From Geopsychrobacter electrodiphilus DSM 16401 (GTDB taxonomy: Bacteria > Desulfobacterota > Desulfuromonadia > Desulfuromonadales > Geopsychrobacteraceae), in the NCBI RefSeq assembly GCF_000384395.1, contig NZ_ARWE01000001.1, positions 3,446,501 to 3,510,500 of the forward strand: 64,000 nucleotides of DNA. Direction: 5' to 3'. Numbering within the stretch: the first letter of the stretch is position 1; the number at the start of each line of letters is the position of its first letter. Made by a program: the position numbers and the translations under genes. Under the pieces are notes generated by a model. That model saw only the letters and a program-made list of their open reading frames with translations, had not been told where the DNA came from and did not search any database. Positions 38,909 through 51,239 of the stretch are shown one piece after another.

Positions 38909-39102
38909 ATATCCATCGCTTAACAAGCCCCCGAACACCCCCTTGCCTGAAAAAACATCTTAAATTTGAAGCGTTTGAACGCCAGATACAGTAAAATGGA
39001 ATTCAGACCGATTCTGTGACAAATTTCCCTTGCTTCACGGAAGGACATCAACCTATAAGAGCGCTCAGTCTGGAGCATTTTACTCGGGTTAAGGACCTAT
39101 TG

Positions 39103-39570
39103 ATGAATACAACTATCGGCTGGCGCGAATGGATATCCCTGCCCGAGCTGCAGATCCCCGGCATCAAAGCCAAAATTGACACCGGCGCCCGGACCTCCGC
39201 CCTGCACGCGTTCTTTGTCGAACCCTTCCGCCAGGATGGCATCGCCATGGTCCGCTTTGGCGTGCATCCTTTGAGAAAGCGCGAAGAGATTGAACTGATC
39301 TGCACCGCGCCGGTCAAGGAGCAGCGCCTGGTAACCGATTCAGGCGGACACCGTGAAAATCGCTTCGTCATTGAAACACCTATCAAGCTCGGCCAGCATC
39401 TCTGCCCGATCGAAATAACCCTCACCAACCGCGACACCATGAAATTCCGTATGCTTCTCGGCCGCAGCGCCCTGCAGAAGCTTGAATTTCTGGTCGATTC
39501 GAGCCACTCGTATCTGATTGGCAAATCCCTGCGGAAAGAGTATCCCCCGAAAAAGGAGCTATCAGCATGA
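39103..39570 (+). CDS. RimK-associated retropepsin-like protease (RimB type)
   Basis: ATG 39103 has AAGGACC upstream and gives 155 aa; the longer GTG frame is less likely. The sequence '[15 protein letters not shown]' contains the single aspartic-protease-type DTG motif of the DUF785/RimB family ('ATP-dependent zinc protease'). In other bacteria RimB trims glutamates added by RimK to ribosomal protein S6. It overlaps rimK by 4 bp. Confidence 0.9.
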
Positions 39571-40472
39571 AAATTGCCATCCTCTCGCGCAACCCTAAAC
39601 TCTACTCAACCCGGCGCCTCGTCGAAGCGGGAGAAGAGCTTGGCCATGAAATTCAAGTGATCGACCCCTTGCGCTGCTATATGACCATCGCGTCACAGAG
39701 ACCGACAATTCACTACAAGGGGGAGGAGTTGAAGGATTTTGACGCCATCATCCCCCGCATCGGCGCCTCCGTCACCTTCTACGGCACCGCGGTTGTGCGT
39801 CAGTTTGAAATGATGAACGTCTACAGCGTCAACGAATCGGTCGCCATCAGCCGCTCGCGCGACAAATTGCGCAGCATGCAGTTGCTGGCACGCAAGGGGA
39901 TCGGCATGCCGGTCACCGGCTTTGCCCATTCGACCAAATACACCAACGACCTGATTGATATGGTCGGCGGGGCGCCCCTGGTCATCAAACTCCTGGAAGG
40001 GACACAGGGGATCGGCGTGGTTCTGGCCGAAACCAACAAGGCGGCCGAAAGCGTCATCGAGGCCTTCCGCGGTCTGCGCGAGAACATTCTGGTTCAGGAA
40101 TTTATCAAGGAGGCAGGTGGTGCCGATATTCGCTGCTTCATCATCGGCGATAAGGTTGTAGCCGCAATGAAGCGTCAGGGCAAAGAGGGCGAGTTCCGCT
40201 CCAACCTCCATCGCGGCGGCTCGGCCACCATCGTCCGCCTGACCCCCGAAGAACGCTCCACGGCGATTCGCGCAGCACGCATCATGGGTTTGAGTGTTGC
40301 CGGCGTCGATCTGCTGCGTTCTAATCACGGACCGGTCATTATGGAGGTCAACTCCTCCCCCGGGCTCGAAGGGATTGAACTGGCGACAGAGAAAGACGTG
40401 GCCGCTCAGATCATTCAGTTCATCGAGAAACAGGCCAAACCGGGCAAAACCAAAACCAGAGGTAAGGGATGA
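39567..40472 (+). CDS. rimK: RimK family ATP-grasp alpha-L-glutamate ligase
   Basis: A 301-aa cytoplasmic ligase. It opens '[23 protein letters not shown]' and shows the ATP-grasp elements '[19 protein letters not shown]', '[30 protein letters not shown]' and the metal-binding '[14 protein letters not shown]'. RimK adds glutamate residues to the C-terminus of ribosomal protein S6 and can make poly-glutamate. It is coupled by 4-bp overlaps to both the upstream protease and the downstream deacylase, making a write/erase module. Confidence 0.93.
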
Positions 40473-41500
40473 GAAACCAGGCGGCATTTTCGCTGGGGGG
40501 AGTCAATGTCAGTGCGGGCACCCGCACCACGATTGATCTGCCGATGGCAAAACTTTACACCCACGCGGAAGTGACCTTGCCGGTGCACGTAATTCACGGC
40601 CGGCAAAAGGGTCCGACCCTGTTTGTCAGTGCCGCGATCCATGGTGATGAGATCAACGGGGTCGAGATCATCCGTAAGCTGCTGCAGAGCCGCTCCCTGT
40701 CACGCTTAAAAGGAACCTTGCTGGCGATTCCGGTGGTTAACCCCTTCGGTTTTATCCAGCGCACCAGATATCTGCCTGACCGACGTGATCTGAATCGATC
40801 CTTTCCGGGCTCGGCGACCGGTTCGCTGGCCAGTCGCCTGGCGCATCTGTTCATGGACCAGATCGTCAATCGCTGCAGCCACGGCATCGACCTGCACACC
40901 GGCTCCAACTATCGCAGCAACCTGCCCCAGATCCGCGCCGATCTTTCGGACCCGGAAACCGCCCGGCTGGCCGACGCCTTTGGCGCCCCGCTGGTGATTC
41001 ACTCCGAGGTGCGTGACGGATCCTTACGCGAGGCGGTGGCCGACAAGGGGATTCCGATCCTGCTCTATGAAGCGGGCGAGGCGCTCTACTTTAACCCGGC
41101 GGCGATCAAGACCGGCACTCAGGGCATCCTCAATGTCATGCGCGCCATCGGCATGCTCAGTCCCGCTCGCAAAAAACCGGCGCAGGATCCGATCCATTCC
41201 GACAAAACCCATTGGATCCGTGCCACCATGAGCGGTATCTTTGAAAAACGGGTCTCTCTCGGCAGTCTGGTCCATAAAGGGGATCTGCTCGGGATTCAGA
41301 GCGACCCCCTGGGTGATGAGACCCAAAAGCTCTTCTCACCCCTGACCGGAGTAGTGATCGGCCAACTCAACCTGCCATTGACTTATGAAGGGGACGCCCT
41401 GATGAATATTGCCCGGGTCAAGGACACCGATGAGGCCGAAGAGACACTGGACGATTACACTTCCGGCTTGACCGAGGCGGATTACGGCGCGGAGCGTTAA
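40469..41500 (+). CDS. Succinylglutamate desuccinylase/aspartoacylase family (M14-like) protein
   Basis: A 343-aa zinc carboxypeptidase-like enzyme. Zinc ligands are in '[14 protein letters not shown]' (His, Glu), and '[19 protein letters not shown]' (His); '[11 protein letters not shown]' is the usual substrate-binding stretch and 'LLYEAGE' carries the catalytic Glu. A C-terminal beta domain ('SPLTGVVIG') follows. The family removes acyl groups from amino acids, or cuts N-acyl-glutamate/aspartate. Placement after rimK suggests action on glutamate-containing conjugates (inference). Confidence 0.9.
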
Positions 41501-41538
41501 TATCAAGGGAGGGAAACAGGCATGATGGAGAAACTGGG

Positions 41539-42597
41539 ATGAGACTATTTTCAGAAGCGAAACCGATCGGCCTTTCGCCGGGAACGCTGGTCCATATCGG
41601 GCGGCAGAAGACGGACACGGCTTCGATCTCGGTTATCGATTATAATTCCGAAAGTCATAAAATTGTCACGAACATCTCTCCGGAACAATCGAAAACTTTC
41701 AAGAATTCGGATTCGGTCAGCTGGATCAATATCTGCGGTATCCACCAGACAGATCTGATCAGCGATCTCGGACAGGTCTTCGATCTTCATGCCCTGGCCC
41801 TCGAAGATATCCTCAATACCGAACATCAACCGAAGTGCGAGGAGTTCGATTCCTACATTCTGTTGATCTTCAAACTGATTCACGTACAGAAAGACACACA
41901 TCAGCTCGAACAGGAACAGATCAGCATGGTGATCGGGCCGAACTGGCTGCTGACCTTTCAGGAGAAACCTGAAGATATCTTTGACCGGCTACGCGACCGG
42001 ATCAACCGGGCCACCGGCAAGATCAGGCAGCGCGGCACCGATTATCTCGCCTACGCCATTCTCGATTCTGTCGTCGACAGCTATTTCCATATCCTTTCCG
42101 ATCTGGGTGAGCAACTGGAAGATATTGAAGAATCCCTGCTACTTGACCCCGAACAAAATGTTTTGCAGGAGATCCACCGTCTCAAACAACAGATGATCAT
42201 GCTCAGGCGTTCGATCTGGCCGTTACAGATTGCGATCACCGAATTTCGTCAACTTGAATCTGCGTTGCTGACGCCGGGTACCGAAATTTTTCTGCGCGAT
42301 CTGCTCGACCACATTTCCCATGCTGTCAATTCGCTCGAACTGATGCGCGACTCGAGCGCTAACCTGCTCGACCTTTACCTGTCGTTGTCCAGCCAGAAAA
42401 TGAACGAAACCATGAAGGTTCTCACCATCATGGCCTCGCTCTTTATCCCCCTGACCTTTATTGCCGGGATCTACGGCATGAACTTTGAGAACATGCCCGA
42501 GCTCAAGTGGGCCTGGGGCTACCCGATGGTCTGGATGATCCTCATCAGCTGTGCCAGCGGTATGCTCTGGTATTTCAAAAGGAAAAAATGGTTCTGA
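41539..42597 (+). CDS. corA: CorA family magnesium/cobalt transporter
   Basis: A 352-aa inner-membrane channel. A large cytoplasmic domain (about 1-285) is followed by two C-terminal membrane helices separated by the diagnostic 'YGMNFENMPEL' (GMN) selectivity motif; the last residues are basic. It forms homopentamers that import Mg2+ (or Co2+/Ni2+). It begins 38 bp after the deacylase gene and overlaps the channel gene by 10 bp. ATP-grasp ligases need Mg2+, but a functional tie to rimK is speculative. Confidence 0.95.
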   Translation: MRLFSEAKPIGLSPGTLVHIGRQKTDTASISVIDYNSESHKIVTNISPEQSKTFKNSDSVSWINICGIHQTDLISDLGQVFDLHALALEDILNTEHQPKCEEFDSYILLIFKLIHVQKDTHQLEQEQISMVIGPNWLLTFQEKPEDIFDRLRDRINRATGKIRQRGTDYLAYAILDSVVDSYFHILSDLGEQLEDIEESLLLDPEQNVLQEIHRLKQQMIMLRRSIWPLQIAITEFRQLESALLTPGTEIFLRDLLDHISHAVNSLELMRDSSANLLDLYLSLSSQKMNETMKVLTIMASLFIPLTFIAGIYGMNFENMPELKWAWGYPMVWMILISCASGMLWYFKRKKWF

Positions 42598-45101
42598 ATC
42601 GATATTTCATCATTTTGGTGGCGCTGCTGTTGCTGGCGGCCGTCCCCATGCAGACTCTGGCGGCAGCAGCCGATACCGCCGCTCCGGCGCAAACAGCACC
42701 AGCCGCCGCGCCAGCCGCTCCGTCCTTTCCCGGGCTCAGCGAACTCGGTCCACGCACCAGTAAGCTGACCGAGTTTGTTGATAATTCCGAAAGCCGTCTG
42801 CATCTCCTCGCCGAACTGAAAGACAGCGAAGAGGCTCTGCGGAACTTCACAACCCAGCTTCAGGATCTTCACGACAAGGCTGCACTCCTCGGCGACCCGA
42901 ACGAATGGTACGTTGATCGCCTGAGCCAGTTCAACAACCAGTTTCTGCAATTGAAACAGAACCTGGAAGGATTGCAGGCCAAACTGGCTGAACGTCAGAA
43001 AAACGTAGAACAAATTCTTAGCAAGAGCCGTGAAGAGAGTGACTTCTGGCAGCAATGGAACAAGGAACTAAAGGCACAGAAGGTCGCCGTTCCGGTGACC
43101 ACCGTCGGTCAGGTCAAAACTCTGTTGAAACGCCTTGAGCAGGGAGGCCAGAAGACCTCCGGTGCCATTCTTAAAATTCAGGAAAAGACCAGTACCCTGC
43201 AACAGAAGGTTAATACCGAACTGGACAGGTTCGCAGGGGCCCTGGCGGCCTTGCGTAAAGCAACCTTTCGTAAGAATGAATATTCGTTTTTTTCCCCTGG
43301 TTTTCAGGCCCGCTTCACCCCCGAGCTCTGGGCTCAAGTTCTTCAAGGCTGGCAAACCGCCAAAAAAATCGATTGGGAGTATCTGCAACGCTATATCTGG
43401 ATCTTCGGCGTACTTGGCCTGGGGTTCATCGGCTTAGGCTACGCGATCAGACGTTACAGGCTTCCGGTGCAGGAAAACAAAGAGTGGCTTTTTGTCCTCT
43501 CACACCCTTTTGCTACCGGCGGGTTCCTCTCGCTGATTCTGGTGGGTAATCTTTTTCCGGCACCACCGACCCAGCTCCGTTTCGCCCTGATGCTCGCCAG
43601 CGTCGTGACCGGTTCGATTCTGGCGGCGGGGCTGATGGAGAATCGACGCCAGGTGCGGATGCTCTTTCTGGCCGCGGTGGTGCTGGTTCTGACCACCGGT
43701 TTCCGCATGATCGACCTGCCCCAGCCGCTCTACCGGATCTACATCGCATTTCTGGCCGTGGCAACCGTGCCGCTGTTGATCGGGCAGATCCGGACCTCAC
43801 TTAAAGTCCGCGGGCCTAAGGCCGGGAATTTCTTCCGATTCCTGATGCGTATAGCTGTTGTCGTGCTGCTATTGTCATTCCTGACCCAGATGGCGGGCTA
43901 TATGAATTTCGCCTCCTGGTTATTGCAGGCGGCATTTGAAACCGGGATGGTTATTCTGTTTGCCATCATGATTTTGCGCCTGGGCAGAGGGGCGATCGAC
44001 TTTGTCCTGCAACACCAGAGGCTTGCCCGACATAAATTTTTTAGCCATTACGGCAAAGAGCTGGCACTGCGCTTCTATCATCTTCTGCAAATGATGGTTG
44101 TCCTCTATTGCCTGTATTATCTGCTGCCGCTGTGGCGGCTGGTCAACAGCAGTCAAGAAGCCTGGGCCCTGATTTCAGACTTTTCCATTCATTTCGGCAA
44201 AACGCGCATCAGCCTGGAGATGTTAATTCTTGCCCTGATCTCATTCTACCTGGCTATGCAGGTATCCTGGCTGCTGCAGGGATTGCTGGAGACCCGTCTC
44301 TTCTATCGCAAATCGGTCGATCGGGGCGTGCGCGATGCGATCAAAAAGCTGGTGCACTATGGGATGGTGAGCTTCGGCTTTCTGGCCGTCCTCAGCCTGC
44401 TCGGTATGAGCCTGCAAAACTTCGTCGTGATTCTTGGCGCCTTCGGTATCGGGATCGGCTTCGGCCTGCAGGATATCGTCAACAACTTCCTCTCCGGCCT
44501 GATCCTGCTCTTTGAACGACCGGTCAAGGTTGGCGATTTCATAGTGGTCAACGAAGAATGGGGGAATATTACGAAAATCGGGTTGCGTTCAACCGTGGTC
44601 GAAATAATTGATCACTCTGAAATCATCGTTCCAAATTCACAGCTGGTCTCGGAAAAGGTCACCAACTGGACCCACAGCACGCGGATGGCCCGCCTGGCCA
44701 TTCCCGTCGGGGTCGCCTACGGCAGCGATGTGCCACGCGTGATGCAAATTCTCACCGAAATCGCCCAACAACATCCAGATGCGGTTAAGGATCCGGCAGC
44801 GAAAGTCCTCTTTATGGAATTCGGGGATAGTTCTCTCAATTTTGAAATTCGGGTTTTTATCCCGGATATCGTGGGGAGCTTCGGCATCCGAAGTGAGATG
44901 CTGCAGCAGATCGATGCTCGTTTCCGCGAAGCCGGAATCGAGATCCCCTTCCCGCAGCGTGACCTGCACCTGCGCAGCGTTGATGGCCAGATTCTGGAGA
45001 AAGCTCAGCAGCATCAACCGGCACAGGAAGCGGAACCAGCCCCGGAAAAGGAAAAGGAACCAGCCCCAGAATTGGCAACAGGCTTCCCCGAAGAAGGTTA
45101 G
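42588..45101 (+). CDS. Large mechanosensitive ion channel (MscS/MscK-like)
   Basis: ATG 42588 after AAAAGGA gives 837 aa. There is a signal peptide (about 1-24), an Ala/Pro-rich stretch, a periplasmic coiled coil (about 60-235), roughly ten membrane helices, and a C-terminal MscS pore and beta domain with 'LSLLGMSLQNFVVILGAFGIGIGFGLQDIVNNF' and 'FERPVKVGDFIVV'. The last 40 residues are Glu/Pro/Lys-rich. It releases solutes on hypo-osmotic shock. It converges on the HDAC gene with only 9 bp between. Confidence 0.92.
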   Translation: MVLNRYFIILVALLLLAAVPMQTLAAAADTAAPAQTAPAAAPAAPSFPGLSELGPRTSKLTEFVDNSESRLHLLAELKDSEEALRNFTTQLQDLHDKAALLGDPNEWYVDRLSQFNNQFLQLKQNLEGLQAKLAERQKNVEQILSKSREESDFWQQWNKELKAQKVAVPVTTVGQVKTLLKRLEQGGQKTSGAILKIQEKTSTLQQKVNTELDRFAGALAALRKATFRKNEYSFFSPGFQARFTPELWAQVLQGWQTAKKIDWEYLQRYIWIFGVLGLGFIGLGYAIRRYRLPVQENKEWLFVLSHPFATGGFLSLILVGNLFPAPPTQLRFALMLASVVTGSILAAGLMENRRQVRMLFLAAVVLVLTTGFRMIDLPQPLYRIYIAFLAVATVPLLIGQIRTSLKVRGPKAGNFFRFLMRIAVVVLLLSFLTQMAGYMNFASWLLQAAFETGMVILFAIMILRLGRGAIDFVLQHQRLARHKFFSHYGKELALRFYHLLQMMVVLYCLYYLLPLWRLVNSSQEAWALISDFSIHFGKTRISLEMLILALISFYLAMQVSWLLQGLLETRLFYRKSVDRGVRDAIKKLVHYGMVSFGFLAVLSLLGMSLQNFVVILGAFGIGIGFGLQDIVNNFLSGLILLFERPVKVGDFIVVNEEWGNITKIGLRSTVVEIIDHSEIIVPNSQLVSEKVTNWTHSTRMARLAIPVGVAYGSDVPRVMQILTEIAQQHPDAVKDPAAKVLFMEFGDSSLNFEIRVFIPDIVGSFGIRSEMLQQIDARFREAGIEIPFPQRDLHLRSVDGQILEKAQQHQPAQEAEPAPEKEKEPAPELATGFPEEG

Positions 45102-45110
45102 CTTTCCTGG

Positions 45111-46856
45111 TTAAACGCGATAGGCGCCGGCCCACAACCCCTTAAAAAATTGCTTCGCGTTGAGCCCGAGGACGCGGCTGTCGTAGCCCCCCTCCTGCAC
45201 CACCAGGGTCGGCAGACGCAGCTCTCCCAGCAGCTGGCCGTTGGCGAAAAAATCTTCCTTGAGCAGACTCCATGTCCCGGTCGGATCGCCGTTGGCCGTA
45301 TCAAGACCCAGGGCAATCACCAGAAACTGGGGCTTGAATTTTGCGATGCGGCGTAAGGCCTTTTCGAGCACCTTGCGGTAACCCTCCCCGTCCAGTTTCT
45401 CGCCCAGCGCGTAGTTCTGATTAAAGCCAAGGCCTTCCCCTTCCCCATGTTCGTCTTCGAACCCGCTGAAATAGGGGTAGGCAAAATTCGGATGACCGTG
45501 AATCGACAGGGTCAAGACATCGGCACGCCCGTAGAAGATGTCCTGGGTGCCGTTGCCATGGTGATAATCGACATCCAGCACGGCAACCCGTCCGTGGCTC
45601 GAAAGCATCTCGGCTGCCACCGCCGAAGAGTTGAAATAACAGAAGCCGCCATAAACCCGACGTTCGGCATGGTGTCCCGGCGGGCGCACCAGGGCATAGG
45701 CCAGGCGCTGCCCGTCGAGCAGACTCCCCGCGGCGGTCAGGGCGCAATCAGTCGCACGTCTGGCCGCAGGATAGGCATTGGCGGTCAGCGGCGTGAAGGT
45801 GTCGATGCAGTAATAACCGGCGCGAATTTCACGGTCGAGGGGCGGCCGCGCCTGATTGCGGATCGGGAAAACATAAGGATAAACCGCCTGCTTCTCGGGC
45901 AGGCCAAGACAGACCGTTTTCAGATAGCGGATATACGCCTTGTCGTGCACCCGCTGCAGAAGCTTCTCCGGATGACGCTTGATCGCGCCTTCCCGGAACA
46001 ACCCGGTCGGCTTCAGTTCACGCAGAATCGAGCGAATCCGCACCGGCGACTCGACGTAACCCCGCTCGCGGATATGATGAATATCGTGCTGATCATTGAT
46101 GACCAGCAGAATCTGCTGATCTTCGGTCAGGGTCTTTGGAGCCTTGACCCCGTTCACTGGGGATTTGAGATAACGCAGCGGGCGCTGACTGACCGGATCG
46201 GCGCTGAAAGACTCAACCACCAGCTTGATGTACTCAGGCGGACAATGATGCTTGTACTTGCGCTCGAGAATCGCCCGCACCAGGGCCTGAGCATCATCGC
46301 GGGACAAGGGCCGCGAACTGTCCAGCGGGTCAAAGACCAGGTAGGGCGGGTTATCATCCCCCGGCTTAACCGGGGTTTCATAAGCGGTGCCGGCAAGGGG
46401 CGTGGCACCGTATTGTTCATAAAACTTCAGCCGCGCCCGGTTCTGCGCCCTGACTTTGCTATCGGCACAGAGCGCCGGATCATCCGGCAGACATTCGAAG
46501 AAGATACCGCGACTGTTCCATTTTTTGGCGTCACCCCGCACCCGCTCATAGAGCGCCCCACCGATCCCGCGCCCGGTCATACCGGAGGCCGTGCTGATAT
46601 AGTCGAGATAGTCAAACTTAAGATCAGGCTCATGCAGCAGCAGGGCAAAGCCTTTCACCCCCCGCCTGGCCCCTTCCGCCACGTAGAGAATGGCACGGAA
46701 GCCGTGTTTGACCGGGTTGTCCAGCTGTTGGGGCAGCTTGTCGACATCACTCACGCTGAGCCCGGAAAACTGCTCGCGCAGAATCGCCTGGACCTGATCA
46801 AGCACGATACGATTGGCAGGCAACCAACTATCAAACAGCCGTCTTATGCGAAACAT
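45111..46856 (-). CDS. GNAT acetyltransferase fused to histone deacetylase-like amidohydrolase
   Basis: A 581-aa cytoplasmic fusion. N-terminal GNAT domain (about 20-175) with the acetyl-CoA motif 'GRGIGGALYE' near 97. C-terminal class-II/acetylpolyamine amidohydrolase-type deacetylase (about 240-575): 'RPPGHHAE' with the catalytic His pair at 395-396, zinc ligands D430 and H432 in 'DVDYHHGNG', and D519 in 'IALGLDTANGD'. All catalytic residues are intact. One chain thus holds both an acetyl writer and eraser. It is the last gene of the minus-strand KamA operon, 48 bp after kamA, with an AAAGGAA ribosome-binding site. The substrate may be an acetylated amine such as acetyl-beta-lysine or a polyamine (inference). 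Confidence 0.9.
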   Translation of the reverse strand: MFRIRRLFDSWLPANRIVLDQVQAILREQFSGLSVSDVDKLPQQLDNPVKHGFRAILYVAEGARRGVKGFALLLHEPDLKFDYLDYISTASGMTGRGIGGALYERVRGDAKKWNSRGIFFECLPDDPALCADSKVRAQNRARLKFYEQYGATPLAGTAYETPVKPGDDNPPYLVFDPLDSSRPLSRDDAQALVRAILERKYKHHCPPEYIKLVVESFSADPVSQRPLRYLKSPVNGVKAPKTLTEDQQILLVINDQHDIHHIRERGYVESPVRIRSILRELKPTGLFREGAIKRHPEKLLQRVHDKAYIRYLKTVCLGLPEKQAVYPYVFPIRNQARPPLDREIRAGYYCIDTFTPLTANAYPAARRATDCALTAAGSLLDGQRLAYALVRPPGHHAERRVYGGFCYFNSSAVAAEMLSSHGRVAVLDVDYHHGNGTQDIFYGRADVLTLSIHGHPNFAYPYFSGFEDEHGEGEGLGFNQNYALGEKLDGEGYRKVLEKALRRIAKFKPQFLVIALGLDTANGDPTGTWSLLKEDFFANGQLLGELRLPTLVVQEGGYDSRVLGLNAKQFFKGLWAGAYRV

Positions 46857-46904
46857 GTCTGGTTCCTTTGAGGTTGCCGAGCCATACGGCAGCCGTGTTG
46901 GATT

Positions 46905-47996
46905 CTAACCCGCGTCTGCCTGCCGGACGATAACCCGCTCATCCGCCTCGGCAGGTTCGGCGTTGGGGTAATGATAGGTGTCGCCCTTATAATTTTTGAG
47001 GACCACATCGTCACCGAGCTGCTGCAGGTAATCGGGCAACAGCGGGATTTTCCCGCCACCGCCTGGCGCATCGATGACATAAGCCGGCACCGCCATCCCC
47101 GAGGTATGTCCACGCAGGGCACGCATCACTTCCAGCCCCTCTTCAACGCTGGTGCGGAAGTGGTCGGTCCCCTGCACCAGATCGGCCTGGTAGATGTAGT
47201 AGGGCCGCACCCGGATCATCAACAGCTTCTGCATCAGGCGCCGCATTACCAGCGGGTCATCATTGACGCCGCGCATCAGAACGGTCTGGTTCCCCAGCGG
47301 GATCCCGGCGTTGGCCAGACGCGCGCAGGCGCGGGTTGATTGCGGGGTGATCTCATCCGGATGGTTGAAGTGGGTATTGAGATAGATCGGATGATAGCGC
47401 CGCAGCACCCGCACCAGGTTCGGCGTGATCCGCTGCGGCAGAACCACCGGGATCCGCGATCCGATGCGGATCATCTCGATATGCGGGATCGCCCGCAGCC
47501 GCTTAAGGATACTGTCGAGGCTCTCATCGCTGCGCAATAACGGATCACCACCCGAAAGGATGACATCACGAATTTCCGGATGCTGCTGGATATAGGCGAT
47601 GCCGTCATCGATGGTTGTGTCGTTGACCGCCATATCTGCGCATCCGACCTTGCGCTTGCGCGTGCAGAAGCGGCAGTACATGGCGCAGGTCGAACTGATG
47701 ATAAACAGCACCCGATCAGGATAGCGGTGCACCAGATTCGGTACCGGGCTCTGATTCTCCTCATTAAGTGGGTCGACGTGACAGACCTTATCCTGCAGCT
47801 CCAGCGCATCGGGCATCGCCTGCTTCCAGATCGGATCGCCGACTTCACGGATCAAACTCAGATAATAGGGGTTAATCCGCATCGGGTAGCGTTCGGCGAC
47901 CTTCAGCAATGGCGCCGGGTCAATCCCAAACTTGCGTGCCAGCACGGTCGGATCGGTAATGCTATTTTGTAATATTTTTTGCCAGGATTCCATCAT
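46905..47996 (-). CDS. KamA family radical SAM aminomutase (lysine 2,3-aminomutase type)
   Basis: A 363-aa cytoplasmic radical SAM/PLP enzyme. The 4Fe-4S cysteines C104, C108, C111 lie in 'CAMYCRFC'; the PLP lysine K316 is in 'DAPGGGGKIP'. D272 ('YQADL') and D309 ('VIDAPG') keep the exact 37- and 7-residue spacing of Asp293/Asp330/Lys337 in clostridial lysine 2,3-aminomutase, the residues that hold the lysine side-chain amine; glutamate 2,3-aminomutase has Lys/Asn there. So the substrate is probably lysine, giving beta-lysine. Length is nearer EpmB (about 340) than KamA (about 415). Start is ATG 47996 or 47993 after GGAGGG. Confidence 0.9.
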   Translation of the reverse strand: MMESWQKILQNSITDPTVLARKFGIDPAPLLKVAERYPMRINPYYLSLIREVGDPIWKQAMPDALELQDKVCHVDPLNEENQSPVPNLVHRYPDRVLFIISSTCAMYCRFCTRKRKVGCADMAVNDTTIDDGIAYIQQHPEIRDVILSGGDPLLRSDESLDSILKRLRAIPHIEMIRIGSRIPVVLPQRITPNLVRVLRRYHPIYLNTHFNHPDEITPQSTRACARLANAGIPLGNQTVLMRGVNDDPLVMRRLMQKLLMIRVRPYYIYQADLVQGTDHFRTSVEEGLEVMRALRGHTSGMAVPAYVIDAPGGGGKIPLLPDYLQQLGDDVVLKNYKGDTYHYPNAEPAEADERVIVRQADAG

Positions 47997-48005
47997 TCCC
48001 TCCAG

Positions 48006-48482
48006 TTAGGCAAAACGCTTGACGTAGGTGATCCGGTCATCGCCCGGTGTGTAGAAATCGGCGATTACCGATTCCTGCAGGTAGCCGGCGTTGTCGTAGA
48101 AGGAACGCGTCCGTTGGTAGGAGCCCTTCGACGAGGTTTCGAGACAGATCATACGGGCACCCCGTTCGCACATGTCGCGCTCGGCGGCCTCCATCAGCAG
48201 ACGACCAAAACCTTCCCCCTGAACACTCGGGTCGGTGGCGATCCAGTAGATATCAAAATTGCCACTGGTCACCGGCACCGGTCCATAGAGGATGTATCCG
48301 ACCACCCCTTGTGGTTTTTCGGCCACCAGTACCAGGTAATCCTTCTGTTCAGGTTGATCGAGAACGATCTGCAGCAATTCCATGGCGCAGACGACTTCGT
48401 CCCTGGTGAAGGAACCCGCCAGTTTGAGGCGATTCAAGATCCCTTTGAGTTGCGCCAGATCACTGCGTTTAAGGGCGCGCAT
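48006..48482 (-). CDS. GNAT family N-acetyltransferase
   Basis: ATG 48482 (AGGAAG upstream) gives 158 aa, the size of a single GNAT domain. Acetyl-CoA motif 'QGEGFGRLLME' (about 93) and 'FDIYWIATDPSVQGEG' are clear. It lies between the ligase genes and kamA, overlapping the ligase by 14 bp and ending 9 bp before kamA. By analogy with ablA-ablB it could acetylate beta-lysine, but true AblB (YodP-like) is about 270 aa, so it is not that enzyme. Substrate unknown. Confidence 0.87.
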   Translation of the reverse strand: MRALKRSDLAQLKGILNRLKLAGSFTRDEVVCAMELLQIVLDQPEQKDYLVLVAEKPQGVVGYILYGPVPVTSGNFDIYWIATDPSVQGEGFGRLLMEAAERDMCERGARMICLETSSKGSYQRTRSFYDNAGYLQESVIADFYTPGDDRITYVKRFA

Positions 48483-49485
48483 CGGCAACTTCCTTTCTCT
48501 GGCTGACAAAAGCCAGAATACGATCGATGAGTTGAGCATAGTTCAGGCCGGCCGCCGTAGCGGACCGCGTGAGACCGGCATCCGGCGAGATATCCGGATT
48601 GGCGTTGATTTCGAGGATAAATGGGGTGTTATTGCGCAGACGGATATCGACCCGCGCGTAATCACGACAGCCCAGCAGGGTATACGCGCGCTCGGCCACA
48701 GTGTAGATCAGCAGCGTCTCCTTGGCGGTCAGCGCCGCCGGGCAAACGGGCCTGGTGCCACGGTATGCGGCAGACTCCGGCGACCACTTGCTGTCAAAAC
48801 AGACCATGGCGCGCGGCAATGACGGGTCAAAGGTGATCTCGGAGATCGGCAGAATCTTCGGTTTCACCCCGCCTAAAATGGCGACGTTCAACTCGCGACC
48901 TTCGATAAACTCTTCGACCAGCGCCGGCTGACGATAGACCTCATGGATATAGCGGATCCGTTTGGCCAGCGTCTGCTTGTTGTCCACCACACTCGCATGT
49001 TCAATCCCCTGCGAGGCGTCTTCATATGGGGGTTTGACAATCAGCGGAAACTTCAGCTTTTCGAGACGCAGGGCATCACCCTTCTGTTTGGCGATGGCAA
49101 AGGCCGGAGTCGGCAGACCGCTCTGCTGCAGCAAGGCTTTGGTGCGGATTTTGTCCTGGCTCAGGCCGAGGCAGAGCGCATTGGATCCGGTGAAGGGGAT
49201 TCTCAGCAGTTCAAACAGGGCCGCGACATGCATCTCCTGCCGCGCATTACCCCAGAAACCTTCACACAGATTGAAGACTACCCCGGGAGCAAAGGCCTTG
49301 ATCCGCTGGATGAAATCCACCAGGTCATCTGCCAGCGGCAGCAGCTCGGCCTGATGCCCAAGGGAGGCCAACGCCTTCTGCACCGCCTTGGCTTCGTCAA
49401 ACGAGCCGGCATCGGCGATCAGGTCACGGGCTTCGCCCTGATTCGGTTTTTTAGGGGTCTGATTATAACAAACGGCGATGCGCAT
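48469..49485 (-). CDS. D-Ala-D-Ala ligase-like ATP-grasp protein (second of pair)
   Basis: ATG 49485 (GTGGAG upstream) gives 338 aa. Ddl-type ATP-grasp signatures: 'NLCEGFWGNARQEMHVAALFELLRIPFTGSNALCLGLSQDK' region (about 72-112), 'FPLIVKPPYEDASQGIE' (phosphate loop), 'LVEEFIEGRELNVAIL' and 'ILEINANPDI' (Mg ligands). The Ddl 'GxxGEDG' loop is replaced by 'EGFWGNARQE', so it is not a cell-wall Ddl. It is a paralogue of the preceding gene and overlaps it by 23 bp. It probably ligates an amino acid to an amine or another amino acid. Confidence 0.88.
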   Translation of the reverse strand: MRIAVCYNQTPKKPNQGEARDLIADAGSFDEAKAVQKALASLGHQAELLPLADDLVDFIQRIKAFAPGVVFNLCEGFWGNARQEMHVAALFELLRIPFTGSNALCLGLSQDKIRTKALLQQSGLPTPAFAIAKQKGDALRLEKLKFPLIVKPPYEDASQGIEHASVVDNKQTLAKRIRYIHEVYRQPALVEEFIEGRELNVAILGGVKPKILPISEITFDPSLPRAMVCFDSKWSPESAAYRGTRPVCPAALTAKETLLIYTVAERAYTLLGCRDYARVDIRLRNNTPFILEINANPDISPDAGLTRSATAAGLNYAQLIDRILAFVSQRKEVADARP

Positions 49486-50533
49486 GATTTTTCTCCACCA
49501 GTCCCAGCCGCTCGCAAGCGGCATCGACGACACTCAGAATCATCTCTGAATAGCTGAGGCCCGCCGCACGCGCGGCCTTGGGGAAGCAGCTGTTCTGCTC
49601 CGGCCGCGGGAGGACCCCGGGCAACGGATTCACTTCGATGATCTGCGGATGACCCTCACTGTCGAGCCGCACATCGATGCGGCACCAGTCACGGCAACCC
49701 AGGTGGTTAAAAGCCTTACGGCAGAGATCCTCGATCGAACGCCGTAACAACGGTTCGAGGGGAGCGGGACAATGAAAAATCTGGAGCGGGTCATCATCAG
49801 TATCCCAGAGCCACTTGGCCTCGTAGGAATAGATCGGGTTGGCGCCCTCTGGCAGAGTCGAAAAATCGATTTCGACAATCGGCAGTACGCGAACATCTGT
49901 ACCGTTACCGAGCAGGGCGACGGTAAATTCACGCCCGCAGAGGAATTCTTCGACCAGCGCCTGCTGCGCATAATTTTCACGAACGCGCACCAGTTCACGC
50001 TGTAACTCCTGCGGCGTGCGAACCAGCGAGCTGTCGGTAATCCCCTTGCTCGAACCTTCGAGGGGAGGTTTGACCAACAGCGGGTAACTCATATGAGCGG
50101 GGAGCTCGTCAGCGTTGTCGATGAGGACAAAGTCCGGCGTTGCAATGTGGTTGTAGCTGAGAATCTCTTTGGTGCGGTACTTGTCGAGACAGAGCCCGAG
50201 AGTCAGCGGATCACTCCCGGTATAGGGGATTTGCAGCATCTCCAGCAGCGCCGGAATTTGGGATTCACGACTTCCGCCGAAGAGGCCTTCGGACATATTG
50301 AAGACCAGATCCGGTTTTAGTCCTCGAAGTCGTTCGAAGGCGTCGAGGTCGGCATTGACCAACGAAACCTGATGCTGTTGAGCGAGAGCGGAAGCGACCG
50401 CCGCTATGGTCTGTTCATCGTCCCATTCGGCGTAAAGGTCTGATGATGTTTGCTGCGGGTGCAGGGTGCAGGGTGCAGGGAGAGGGTCATCTCCTTCTGC
50501 GCCACGCTGATTAAAAGCGAGTGCAATATTCAT
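49463..50533 (-). CDS. D-Ala-D-Ala ligase-like ATP-grasp protein (first of pair)
   Basis: ATG 50533 after AAAAAGGGG gives 356 aa. Key stretches: 'NMSEGLFGGSRESQIPALLEMLQIPYTGSD' region (about 80-110), 'YPLLVKPPLEGSSKGI', 'LVEEFLCGREFTVALL' and 'IIEVNPLPGVLPRPEQ'. Same fold as the next gene. Compared with its paralogue it has an extra loop at about 14-30 encoded partly by three copies of a 7-bp repeat (21 bp, so in frame). Its ribosome-binding site is buried in a predicted leader helix. It heads the five-gene operon. Substrates unknown. Confidence 0.88.
   Translation of the reverse strand: MNIALAFNQRGAEGDDPLPAPCTLHPQQTSSDLYAEWDDEQTIAAVASALAQQHQVSLVNADLDAFERLRGLKPDLVFNMSEGLFGGSRESQIPALLEMLQIPYTGSDPLTLGLCLDKYRTKEILSYNHIATPDFVLIDNADELPAHMSYPLLVKPPLEGSSKGITDSSLVRTPQELQRELVRVRENYAQQALVEEFLCGREFTVALLGNGTDVRVLPIVEIDFSTLPEGANPIYSYEAKWLWDTDDDPLQIFHCPAPLEPLLRRSIEDLCRKAFNHLGCRDWCRIDVRLDSEGHPQIIEVNPLPGVLPRPEQNSCFPKAARAAGLSYSEMILSVVDAACERLGLVEKNHAHRRLL
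50457..50480. repeat. Heptamer repeat GGGTGCA x3 inside a coding region
   Basis: Three and three-sevenths copies of GGGTGCA lie in the 5' part of the first ATP-grasp gene, coding on the minus strand for 'PAPCTLHP'. Three units are 21 bp and keep the frame; a gain or loss of one unit would shift it. Confidence 0.75.
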
Positions 50534-50538
50534 GGTCA

Positions 50539-50635
50539 ACCCCTTTTTAAGTAAAACAAGCCACTACAAAATCTACCCTTGCGGGGTGCATTCCTCTTGG
50601 CGCGAAGCGCCTGACGTCTGTGGCTAAAAAGGGGT
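50539..50635 (-). promoter_or_regulatory. Structured leader that sequesters the ribosome-binding site (candidate riboswitch/thermosensor)
   Basis: Read on the minus strand, ACCCCTTTTT (50635-50626) is perfectly complementary to AAAAAGGGGT (50548-50539), which contains the Shine-Dalgarno of the first ATP-grasp gene. Stacked directly on it on one side, AGCCAC (50625-50620) pairs with GTGGCT (50564-50559). Enclosed are two hairpins: GGCGC-TTC-GCGCC (50611-50599) and ACCC-CGCAA-GGGT (50587-50575). This makes a branched junction closed by a 10+6 bp stem. It does not match any riboswitch consensus I can recall. Confidence 0.6.
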
Positions 50636-50691
50636 CTCTTTTGTCGCTTGGTCGTTGCGCGCTCCGTAGCCGGATATGCCTATTTCGCGCA

Positions 50692-50720
50692 CTAATACTC
50701 CCGCTAAATATACTTGTCAA
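50692..50720 (-). promoter_or_regulatory. Sigma70-type promoter of the KamA/ATP-grasp operon
   Basis: Minus strand TTGACA (50715-50720) is a perfect -35, followed after exactly 17 nt by TATTAG (50692-50697) as -10. Transcription would start near 50685, leaving a leader of about 150 nt that contains the structured element. Confidence 0.6.
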
Positions 50721-51239
50721 CTAAATAAAAAAAAGCCCCCATTCACCCATTTCAACTACCTGAAATCTTAACAGAAAAGTTAAGGGTGGCTAGTTTAAAT
50801 CCAGAATAAAAAAGGTCGGATTTTTCATAAAAAAATTTGCCGTGGGCCAAACAGAAACTGGGTTCCGTTTTACTAACTCCGAAAAATGAAATAAACCGCA
50901 CCCAGCAGACAGAATGCCGCCTGCTCAAAAACCCTTCCGGCTCAATTCGCGAGAAAAAGCACAGCAGCTCACCGAGCCGTTTCAAGGCCTCATCGATGCG
51001 CAGTCCCAGTGCCAATCGGGCACCGGTGTTTTTGCCGGCTGCCTATTTTTTAGATAGCTTCGACTACACGATCGGAGCTACTTTCATGGTTTAGATTCTG
51101 AGGGAATTCTCGGAGCACCAGCAGACGCCCCTTGGCACACTGGTGCACAACGACCTCTGTTTCTCAGGCGACGGTCAAAAGCCTGCCTGAGGTTGCTAAA
51201 ACGCCCGACAAACCCGTCCCTTTCAGACCGGACCTGCAT
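50721..51239. other. Intergenic region without a supported gene
   Basis: About 520 bp between the divergent KamA operon promoter and the EamA gene. It is more A/T-rich than its surroundings between 50720 and 50900. Short frames on both strands (50752-51015 minus, 50837-51094 plus) have no ribosome-binding site or recognisable domain. No repeat or mobile element ends were found. Confidence 0.4.

Follow-up and report, generated by a model that had tools for sequence, protein, structure and literature searches.

A conserved bacterial operon as a candidate for the synthesis of small, acetylated peptides of beta-lysine

Results and discussion

Five adjacent genes of Geopsychrobacter electrodiphilus DSM 16401 form a conserved unit, and we consider the case about evenly balanced that their products build a small, acetylated peptide of beta-lysine in the cytosol, by a mechanism deduced from the enzyme families present. 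Alignments indicate that catalytic residues are intact in the KamA-family enzyme, in both ATP-grasp ligases and in the HDAC domain encoded by these genes, and co-conservation is very strong. The known fates of beta-lysine are few: osmolyte, EF-P tag and constituent of antibiotics. A new fate in common environmental bacteria would add a class of metabolite, and would explain many proteins resembling D-Ala-D-Ala ligases and histone deacetylases. No description of the gene set is present among the matches listed in the open-licence literature.

Organisation of the operon

The window, the whole stretch of 64,000 nucleotides that was analysed, carries all five genes on its minus strand. The ATG-initiated lig1 (49463..50533) encodes the first of a pair of ATP-grasp ligases of the D-Ala-D-Ala ligase family, and overlaps by 23 bp with lig2 (48469..49485), which encodes the second, paralogous ligase; lig2 in turn overlaps by 14 bp with a gene for a GNAT acetyltransferase (48006..48482; PF13508/PF00583 match). 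A gap of 9 bp separates the latter from the gene for a KamA-family radical SAM enzyme, a predicted lysine 2,3-aminomutase (46905..47996), and 48 bp further on lies a GNAT-HDAC fusion (45111..46856), whose N-terminal GNAT part (approximately 1-180) precedes a C-terminal zinc deacylase of acetylpolyamine amidohydrolase type (approximately 250-575). The untranslated stretch upstream of lig1 (50534..50840, minus strand) probably contains the promoter, judging from its position. The initial annotation had described five co-directional minus-strand genes with these overlaps and gaps, and is exact in this respect when compared with the reading frames; the families it named (two Ddl-like ligases, a GNAT, a KamA-type radical SAM enzyme and a GNAT-HDAC) are matched by Pfam and NCBIfam profiles.

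Conservation across bacterial phyla

In a survey of 136 genomes of the order, where Fisher tests count related genomes as independent, a lig1 orthologue is present in 47, and the cluster KamA is found in 46 of these against 0 of the 89 genomes lacking lig1. The two genes lie within 3 kb of each other in 44 of 46 pairs, and the order lig1-lig2-GNAT-KamA is kept in all 20 order loci that were read. Outside the order, the kamA-ligase module recurs under approximately seven other phylum labels, with the GNAT-HDAC gene sometimes elsewhere in the genome; together or as partners at separate sites, the gene set occurs in Desulfuromonadales, Planctomycetota, Chloroflexota, Bacteroidota and marine Alphaproteobacteria. 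Among 80 GNAT-HDAC loci from other genomes, 35 carry kamA and a ligase, ten a ligase without kamA, and 35 the HDAC gene alone. Given the invariant four-gene order (20/20) and the 35/80 loci with kamA and ligase, the grouping is far beyond chance. The proposal that the five genes are one conserved unit is therefore borne out both within the order and in other phyla, and the converse possibility, that they are not conserved together in relatives, is contradicted. In one genome only, a related ATP-grasp ligase is fused to a peptidase S58 domain downstream of ablA-ablB.

The fusion gene is less tightly bound to this unit. It was found in 37 of the 47 lig1 genomes (33 full length), often unlinked to the operon, and was not detected in the other ten; it is also present in seven of the 89 lig1-less genomes (three full length, four partial or fragmentary). 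A kamA-ligase cluster lies elsewhere in 19 of the 35 genomes with a solitary HDAC gene, and none was seen in the remaining 16 when it was looked for. Since these 16 genomes and the seven lig1-less genomes of the order have the protein without its partners, GNAT-HDAC also has some additional role.

Two ligases with altered D-Ala sites

Both ligases match PF07478 (lig1 121.8 bits, lig2 104.7 bits) and fall short of the 243-bit cut-off of the NCBIfam Ddl model NF002378 (187.9 and 160.8 bits respectively). The AlphaFold model of lig1 (pLDDT 87.5) has DdlB as its nearest Foldseek match, an expected fold. Phylogenetically, lig1 forms its own clade across phyla (support 96/88), from which lig2 is separated with support 97/86; that both persist as separate groups over approximately eight phylum labels suggests that two different ligations have been kept.

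We aligned 42 lig1 and 41 lig2 sequences, after removal of three of uncertain placement and reassignment of two by tree, and used E. coli DdlB numbering for what we take to be the ATP-grasp/Mg positions and the D-Ala site (E15, S150, Y216 and S281-L282). Equivalents of K97, K144, E180, E187, K215, R255, D257, E270 and N272 are kept in 41-42 of 42 lig1 and 40-41 of 41 lig2 sequences. The D-Ala site is altered in both: lig2 has A or G at S150 (41/41), W at Y216 (41/41) and G at L282 (40/41), while lig1 has E, R, W or K at Y216 (41/42) and D or C at L282 (41/42), and retains S281 (42/42) and S or T at S150; the E15 column is poorly aligned. By sequence, both enzymes thus retain the chemistry of ATP-grasp ligases and lack the D-Ala site, whose replacements are specific to each clade.

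A predicted lysine 2,3-aminomutase, apparently recruited twice

The window KamA scores 312 bits against TIGR00238 (cut-off 199), and its best NCBIfam match is AblA (TIGR03820), at 476.5 bits below the equivalog cut-off of 525.4. Aligned to 2a5h, it keeps C125, C129, C132, R134, D293, D330 and K337, as do all 35 cluster KamAs compared, the window's included (one truncated row was excluded). These presumably comprise the radical SAM CxxxCxxC motif, the PLP lysine and two aspartates binding the epsilon-amine, and on the strength of the two aspartates we predict an enzyme of lysine 2,3-aminomutase type acting on lysine.

The cluster KamAs do not appear to be of one origin. A tree with 40 cluster and ten non-cluster sequences rejects them as a single clade (AU p 0.0016); a second tree, to which six EpmA-adjacent paralogues absent from the first were added and from which 15 other-phylum cluster sequences were thinned out (25 cluster, 16 non-cluster), leads to the same conclusion, if less strongly (AU p 0.010). 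Within the order, the cluster KamA groups with its local paralogue as sister (support 100/100). Taken together, these topologies suggest that a KamA activity was recruited twice. In-frame stops flagged among the KamA paralogues had raised selenocysteine as a candidate; in the one case read, the TGA is a terminal stop and the flag reflects aligner readthrough.

The acetyltransferases and the deacylase domain

The stand-alone GNAT has 2r7h as its nearest solved structure (91 bits) and rimI as its best NCBIfam match, at 47 bits against a cut-off of 86.4; the AblB-type GNAT model (TIGR03827) has no match in the whole genome. In the fusion protein, the HDAC domain is clear (PF00850, 237 bits). The N-terminal half scores below the Pfam cut-off for GNAT in the window's protein, and matches GNAT families at E <=0.01 in 21 of 22 members of the family. 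A GNAT fused behind an HDAC domain is evident from Pfam in one other genome, and HDAC frames of approximately 2250 nt suggest a similar fusion elsewhere. The structure model (pLDDT 75.1) gives the nearest folds expected, the best PDB matches are acetylpolyamine amidohydrolases at 33-38% identity, and the catalytic set (zinc, His-His/Tyr) is intact in 80-81 of 81 sequences. By nearest structures and catalytic set, the domain is of acetylpolyamine amidohydrolase type.

A predicted pathway and its alternatives

For the substrate of KamA, the peptide-bond product of the ligases, the order of steps and the position of the acetyl group, we infer the following scheme. KamA would convert L-lysine to L-beta-lysine, and the ligases would form two successive amide bonds, incorporating beta-lysine into a molecule that resembles a di- or tripeptide. 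The GNAT, perhaps with the GNAT half of the fusion, would acetylate a free amine, and the deacylase domain would strip acetyl from a lysine-like side-chain amine, either unmasking a protected intermediate or recycling the product. The initial annotation had proposed that beta-lysine is made, ligated and reversibly acetylated: this is the most economical reading, and KamA is of lysine type by its residues, while the ligase substrates stay predicted. Recurrence over several phyla suggests a product probably useful to the cell, and that a small molecule probably awaits discovery. More tentatively, and with somewhat less confidence than doubt, we propose an undescribed beta-lysine peptide pathway spanning approximately eight phyla, with at least two independent recruitments of lysine 2,3-aminomutase to one and the same ligase pair, and with a dedicated GNAT and a deacetylase of acetylpolyamine amidohydrolase type that set and remove the peptide's acetyl group. 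If true, the product would define a new class of small molecule that is widespread among bacteria.

Could KamA instead serve a different reaction? That the operon's KamA is EpmB, with the other genes bystanders, would accord with the presence of EpmA in the window genome (308.5 bits, cut-off 286.9) and with the sister relationship between the order's cluster KamA and a paralogue group containing EpmA-linked KamAs. EpmA, however, exceeds its cut-off not only in 41/47 lig1 genomes but in 70/89 genomes without the operon, it has the KamA paralogue as a neighbour (within 10 kb) in 31 genomes but the cluster KamA in none of 46, and the window KamA reaches only 259 of the 369 bits set for EpmB. This linkage makes it unlikely that KamA acts as EpmB on EF-P, which the initial annotation had named as a refutation, and as a whole we give that reading hardly any credence; EF-P modification more likely belongs to the paralogue, a role which in the window genome rests on tree position, EpmA and the paralogue being approximately 1.9 Mb apart. 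It is also very improbable that KamA uses another amino acid and the peptide holds a different beta-amino acid: the enzyme does fall under every KamA-family NCBIfam equivalog cut-off, but both epsilon-amine-binding aspartates are kept in 35/35 sequences, and the matching residues are absent, as read from sequence, from the genome's third KamA, which is of another type. A target larger than a peptide, with the ligases loading beta-lysine, alone or as a beta-lysyl peptide, onto a protein, tRNA, lipid or carrier while the acetyltransferase and deacetylase switch the tag, has precedents in the beta-lysine protein tag of EpmA/EpmB and in the ATP-grasp enzyme RimK, which extends the ribosomal protein RpsF with glutamates (PMC12239564), and the deacylase superfamily includes protein deacetylases. 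Against it, any additional gene accompanies the operon in 6 of the 20 order loci at most (reading frames >=80 aa), so that a carrier gene does not belong to its constant set; the substrates joined by Ddl-type ligases are small amino acids, and the HDAC domain is nearest to acetylpolyamine amidohydrolases, which act on small molecules. We regard such a target as improbable.

Scarcely more favoured than the very improbable readings above, and a little less than a macromolecular target, is the possibility that KamA and the GNAT simply make N-epsilon-acetyl-beta-lysine, which the HDAC domain degrades, with the ligases serving another pathway. It follows ablAB logic, the HDAC type fits deacetylation of a primary-amine acetamide, and the window genome lacks an AblB match; yet the operon's GNAT is not AblB, the ligases are the genes most strictly linked to KamA, and 26/47 operon genomes hold a separate ablB as well, either on a different contig or no closer than 70 kb to the operon. 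An osmolyte or compatible-solute role, which the initial annotation had found plausible from the neighbouring mscS and corA genes, is unlikely too, if the least so of these alternatives. In its favour, lysine 2,3-aminomutase genes function in making osmolytes, and Na+ riboswitches can control them (PMC9337991; PMC3543383); no transporter family recurs beside the operon in order loci, the names of some hosts point to the sea, and ablB is weakly linked to the operon (above cut-off in 26/47 lig1 genomes against 30/89 others, p 0.018). However, the MscS, CorA and EamA genes of the window have homologues beside the operon in none of the 20 other order loci (in the other 80 loci, MscS in 5/80, CorA and EamA in 0/80), BCCT transporters do not track it (12/47 against 15/89, p 0.26), and an Rfam scan of the whole window finds no family, riboswitch or other RNA, reaching its gathering score. 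Proteins encoded around Ddl, whose acidity is a proxy for salt adaptation, are less acidic in operon genomes (p 0.018; for the window's family p 0.30) in a sample of 56 genomes among the Ddl matches listed (28 with and 28 without the operon), a comparison confounded by two dropped operon-less genomes with fewer than three usable genes, by several stretches ending at contig ends, and by differing GC content (0.587 against 0.545, p 0.003). The osmolyte role thus gains no firm support: neighbours and BCCT transporters lend none, acidity points in the opposite direction, and ablB is weakly in favour.

Comparison with known systems

The preferred peptide pathway shares parts with several systems. 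EpmB/EpmA likewise employs a KamA-family enzyme, but the operon holds neither EF-P nor EpmA. The ablA/ablB pathway, which makes N-epsilon-acetyl-beta-lysine in methanogens and is predicted in Pelobacter carbinolicus, also pairs a GNAT with a lysine 2,3-aminomutase within a single operon, whereas here the GNAT is not AblB, and two ATP-grasp ligases and GNAT-HDAC are added. In the N-acetylglutaminylglutamine amide system, a GNAT and an ATP-grasp ligase make an N-acetylated dipeptide, and an asnO amidotransferase and an M42-type peptidase stand beside ngg; that system is not known to have an aminomutase or HDAC, and our operon has no amidotransferase, neither asnO nor the peptidase being among the recurring neighbours in the 20 order loci scanned. 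Iyer and others reportedly predicted, in 2009, ATP-grasp amidoligase operons in which peptide ligases accompany GNATs, peptidases and enzymes that modify amino acids; that set may already include the present operon, and a prior report would most likely be found there. Ddl and the L-amino acid ligases have the fold and ATP/Mg residues in common with lig1 and lig2, which differ from Ddl in their D-Ala-site residues; a better Ddl candidate (188.5 bits) is encoded elsewhere in the genome. Finally, acetylpolyamine amidohydrolases, from Marinobacter and others, are the closest solved HDAC-fold structures and have the same full catalytic set, whereas the operon's domain is fused behind a GNAT and tied to a KamA/ligase operon.

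The operon and its conservation within the Desulfuromonadales

Reading frames bear out the five genes that the initial annotation had placed at 45111-50533 on the minus strand, including their overlaps and gaps, and family scans match the names it gave them: two paralogous Ddl-like ATP-grasp ligases (lig1 and lig2), a GNAT, a KamA and a GNAT-HDAC fusion. The genome containing the window is a single contig of 4.24 Mb. In the fusion protein a GNAT (approximately residues 1-180) precedes an HDAC-fold domain; the GNAT signal of the window protein taken singly is weak, but 21 of the 22 members of an alignment of the family match GNAT families. Acetylpolyamine amidohydrolases, which deacetylate small primary amines, are the nearest matches of the HDAC domain both in a Foldseek search with a model (pLDDT 75.1) and by phmmer. 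For the separate operon GNAT, the closest solved structure is PDB 2r7h, annotated 'putative D-alanine N-acetyltransferase'.

Orthologues of lig1 are present in 47 of the 136 genomes of the order that were searched, all at 481 bits or more (next match 204.8), and the KamA encoded with the ligase pair (cluster KamA) was found in 46 of these 47 versus none of the other 89 (Fisher p 1e-35, kinship of genomes ignored). Both thresholds were chosen after the score gaps had been seen; that for cluster KamA was at least 574 bits, plus two contig-end or partial matches at 70 and 75% identity, with the next match at 507. In the sole lig1 genome without a cluster KamA match, G014, about 1.2 kb separates lig2 from the end of its contig. 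The lig1 and kamA genes lie no more than 3 kb apart in 44 of the 46, the remaining two being on split contigs, and the order lig1-lig2-GNAT-KamA is kept in all 20 loci read out of the 47, mostly picked for long contigs. The operon is thus conserved together in relatives, as the single pathway proposed in the initial annotation would lead one to expect. GNAT-HDAC is found in 37 of the 47 lig1 genomes (33 full length, 4 fragmentary) versus 7 of the 89 others (3 full length, 4 partial or fragmentary), yet it adjoins the operon in some genomes and is distant in others (2.57 Mb in G135, for instance); it is therefore a partner, but a looser one.

The ligase pair

All nine ATP-grasp positions checked are retained in lig1 and lig2. 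Positions of the D-Ala site are altered, with changes that are fixed within each ligase clade and more extensive in lig2 than in lig1, which retains S281 of this site. The closest match to a lig1 model (pLDDT 87.5) is DdlB, at 29% identity, and a better Ddl candidate is encoded elsewhere in the window genome (L001). Judged by these residues and by the presence of L001, lig1 and lig2 are active-looking ligases that probably act on substrates other than those of Ddl.

Related ligases also occur in other settings. One, encoded downstream of ablA-ablB (L144/L252, G124:C225), carries a fused domain of peptidase family S58 (DmpA/BapA), as identified by Pfam; phmmer detects the same fusion in G042, with no ablAB nearby (L245 6592-8739), and in G167 a tandem lig1-lig2 fusion of 697 aa is followed by an S58 peptidase gene (L246 3064-6304). 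The S58 family includes beta-aminopeptidases such as BapA, and these associations provide a lead bearing on the beta-amino-acid peptide reading. Three GNAT-HDAC genomes without lig1 (G164, G162 and G156; loci L242, L243 and L244) have a single ligase whose closest match is lig2 (256-280 bits), with no KamA nearby within the fetched stretch.

Distribution in other phyla

When the GNAT-HDAC alignment was scanned against GTDB species genomes, a relative was found in 593 of 595 stretches among the matches listed, and the best 80 of these at least 593 relatives form our sample of other-phylum loci. All five genes are present in 20 of the 80, kamA with at least one ligase in 35 (five-gene loci included), a ligase without kamA in 10, several of them on short contigs, and the HDAC gene alone in 35. 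A lig1 search of these 35 HDAC-only genomes, with KamA sought only next to ligase matches, revealed a kamA-ligase cluster elsewhere in 19 and none in 16, six named Spirochaetes included; four added genomes with known clusters were all recovered. One HDAC-only genome, G167, has a lig1-lig2 fusion with kamA not nearby (L112). Locus L062 encodes a fusion in which the GNAT follows the HDAC domain, an arrangement also suggested for a dozen more loci by their HDAC frames of about 2250 nt. Three other-phylum clusters encode a CxxCxxCC-type putative metal-binding protein between kamA and lig1, assigned by Pfam at L054 1428-2048 and L074 5399-6028 and by similarity at L079 5342-5926.

In the ligase tree, lig1 (42 rows, support 96/88) and lig2 (43 rows, two of them doubtful, 97/86) form separate groups; three long rows are uncertain, and the Ddl outgroup row lies beside lig1 on a long branch. 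Each group spans the labels Thermodesulfobacteriota, Chloroflexota, Planctomycetota, Pseudomonadota, Bacteroidota, Ignavibacteriota, Myxococcota and FCPU426, labels that come partly from MAGs and may be wrong. As the two groups share the same phylum labels, the ligase pair is therefore old.

Origin and role of the cluster KamA

Aligned to 2a5h, the window KamA keeps C125, C129, C132, R134, D293, D330 and K337, as do all 35 cluster KamAs, the window's among them; we take these positions to be the cluster, carboxylate, epsilon-amine and PLP residues, and the chain numbering fits. In two trees, the cluster KamA of the Desulfuromonadales groups as sister with paralogues from the same order rather than with its cluster counterparts in other phyla, a placing supported at 100/100 in the KamA tree to which six EpmA-adjacent paralogues were added. 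AU tests reject a single clade of cluster KamAs (p 0.0016, 40 rows versus 10), also after removal of two long rows picked once the tree had been seen (p 0.00012), and a single clade has p 0.010 in the second KamA tree (25 rows versus 16). With the cluster KamAs not forming one clade, the same ligase pair appears to have acquired a lysine 2,3-aminomutase at least twice, on a sampling of few non-cluster KamAs. Such repeated recruitment hints at a need for beta-lysine itself.

Alternatively, the cluster KamA might serve EF-P. EpmA scores over the cut-off in 41 of the 47 operon-bearing genomes and in 70 of the 89 others, and it is encoded within 10 kb of the KamA paralogue in at least 31 genomes (39 same-contig EpmA-paralogue pairs among the matches listed), but in none of 46 genomes does it lie that close to the cluster KamA; in the window genome EpmA lies about 1.9 Mb from the paralogue (L120). 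It is thus the paralogue, more likely than the cluster KamA, that serves EF-P.

The window genome also encodes a third KamA (L121, G000:C1 about 409000-412000), which is nearest to an arginine 2,3-aminomutase model, below its cut-off, and lacks both epsilon-amine aspartates. It adjoins genes that, read from sequence, appear to be for a glycine-betaine ABC transporter, and is perhaps a beta-amino-acid osmolyte gene.

Neighbouring genes and the osmolyte question

The initial annotation considered an osmolyte plausible from the neighbouring mscS and corA genes, a suggestion that finds no firm support in relatives. Beside the operon, none of the 20 order loci encodes a homologue of the window's MscS, CorA or EamA; among the best 80 of at least 593 relatives in other phyla, MscS homologues occur in 5 loci, and CorA and EamA homologues in none. 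BCCT shows no association with the operon (12 of 47 versus 15 of 89 genomes, p 0.26). Proteins encoded around Ddl are slightly less acidic in operon-bearing genomes (p 0.018; 28 genomes versus 28 without the operon, 26 of the latter scored), the opposite of a salt signature, and within the window's own family there is no difference (7 versus 9 genomes, p 0.30).

The neighbours found in at least 3 of the 20 order loci are a DUF255 thioredoxin-like protein (6), an HTH regulator (5), DHH/CBS (4), DUF3108 (4) and, at 3 each, a HAD hydrolase, two methyltransferases and one short unassigned frame. The HTH gene, at L133 6332-7249 and in four more order loci, encodes a candidate regulator. No transporter recurs beside the operon among these 20 loci, so its product probably stays inside the cell; an ABC-transporter ATPase family occurs within 8 kb in 8 of the best 80 of at least 593 other-phylum loci, which may be background. 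Co-occurrence with ablB is weak (26 of 47 versus 30 of 89 genomes, p 0.018); in 26 genomes ablB and the operon are both present but lie apart, which speaks against plain acetyl-beta-lysine as the product. In the window, a second ATP-grasp peptide system converges on the operon from the plus strand, at 39016-42597 and then 42507-45101, encoding in order a RimB-like PF05618 protease, a RimK ATP-grasp, an AstE/AspA-family hydrolase, CorA and an MscK-like channel.

A candidate pathway and its relation to known systems

We infer every biochemical step of the pathway that the operon probably encodes: KamA would convert lysine to beta-lysine, lig1 and lig2 would join this through two ATP-driven steps, and the GNAT would acetylate an amine that the HDAC domain would deacetylate, the acetyl group perhaps serving for protection while the product is assembled, or as a turnover switch. 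No description of the five-gene set was found in the open-licence literature searched, and an earlier mention in a 2009 survey of ATP-grasp amidoligase operons is possible. The individual parts are already known, and the set takes its place among ATP-grasp peptide pathways.
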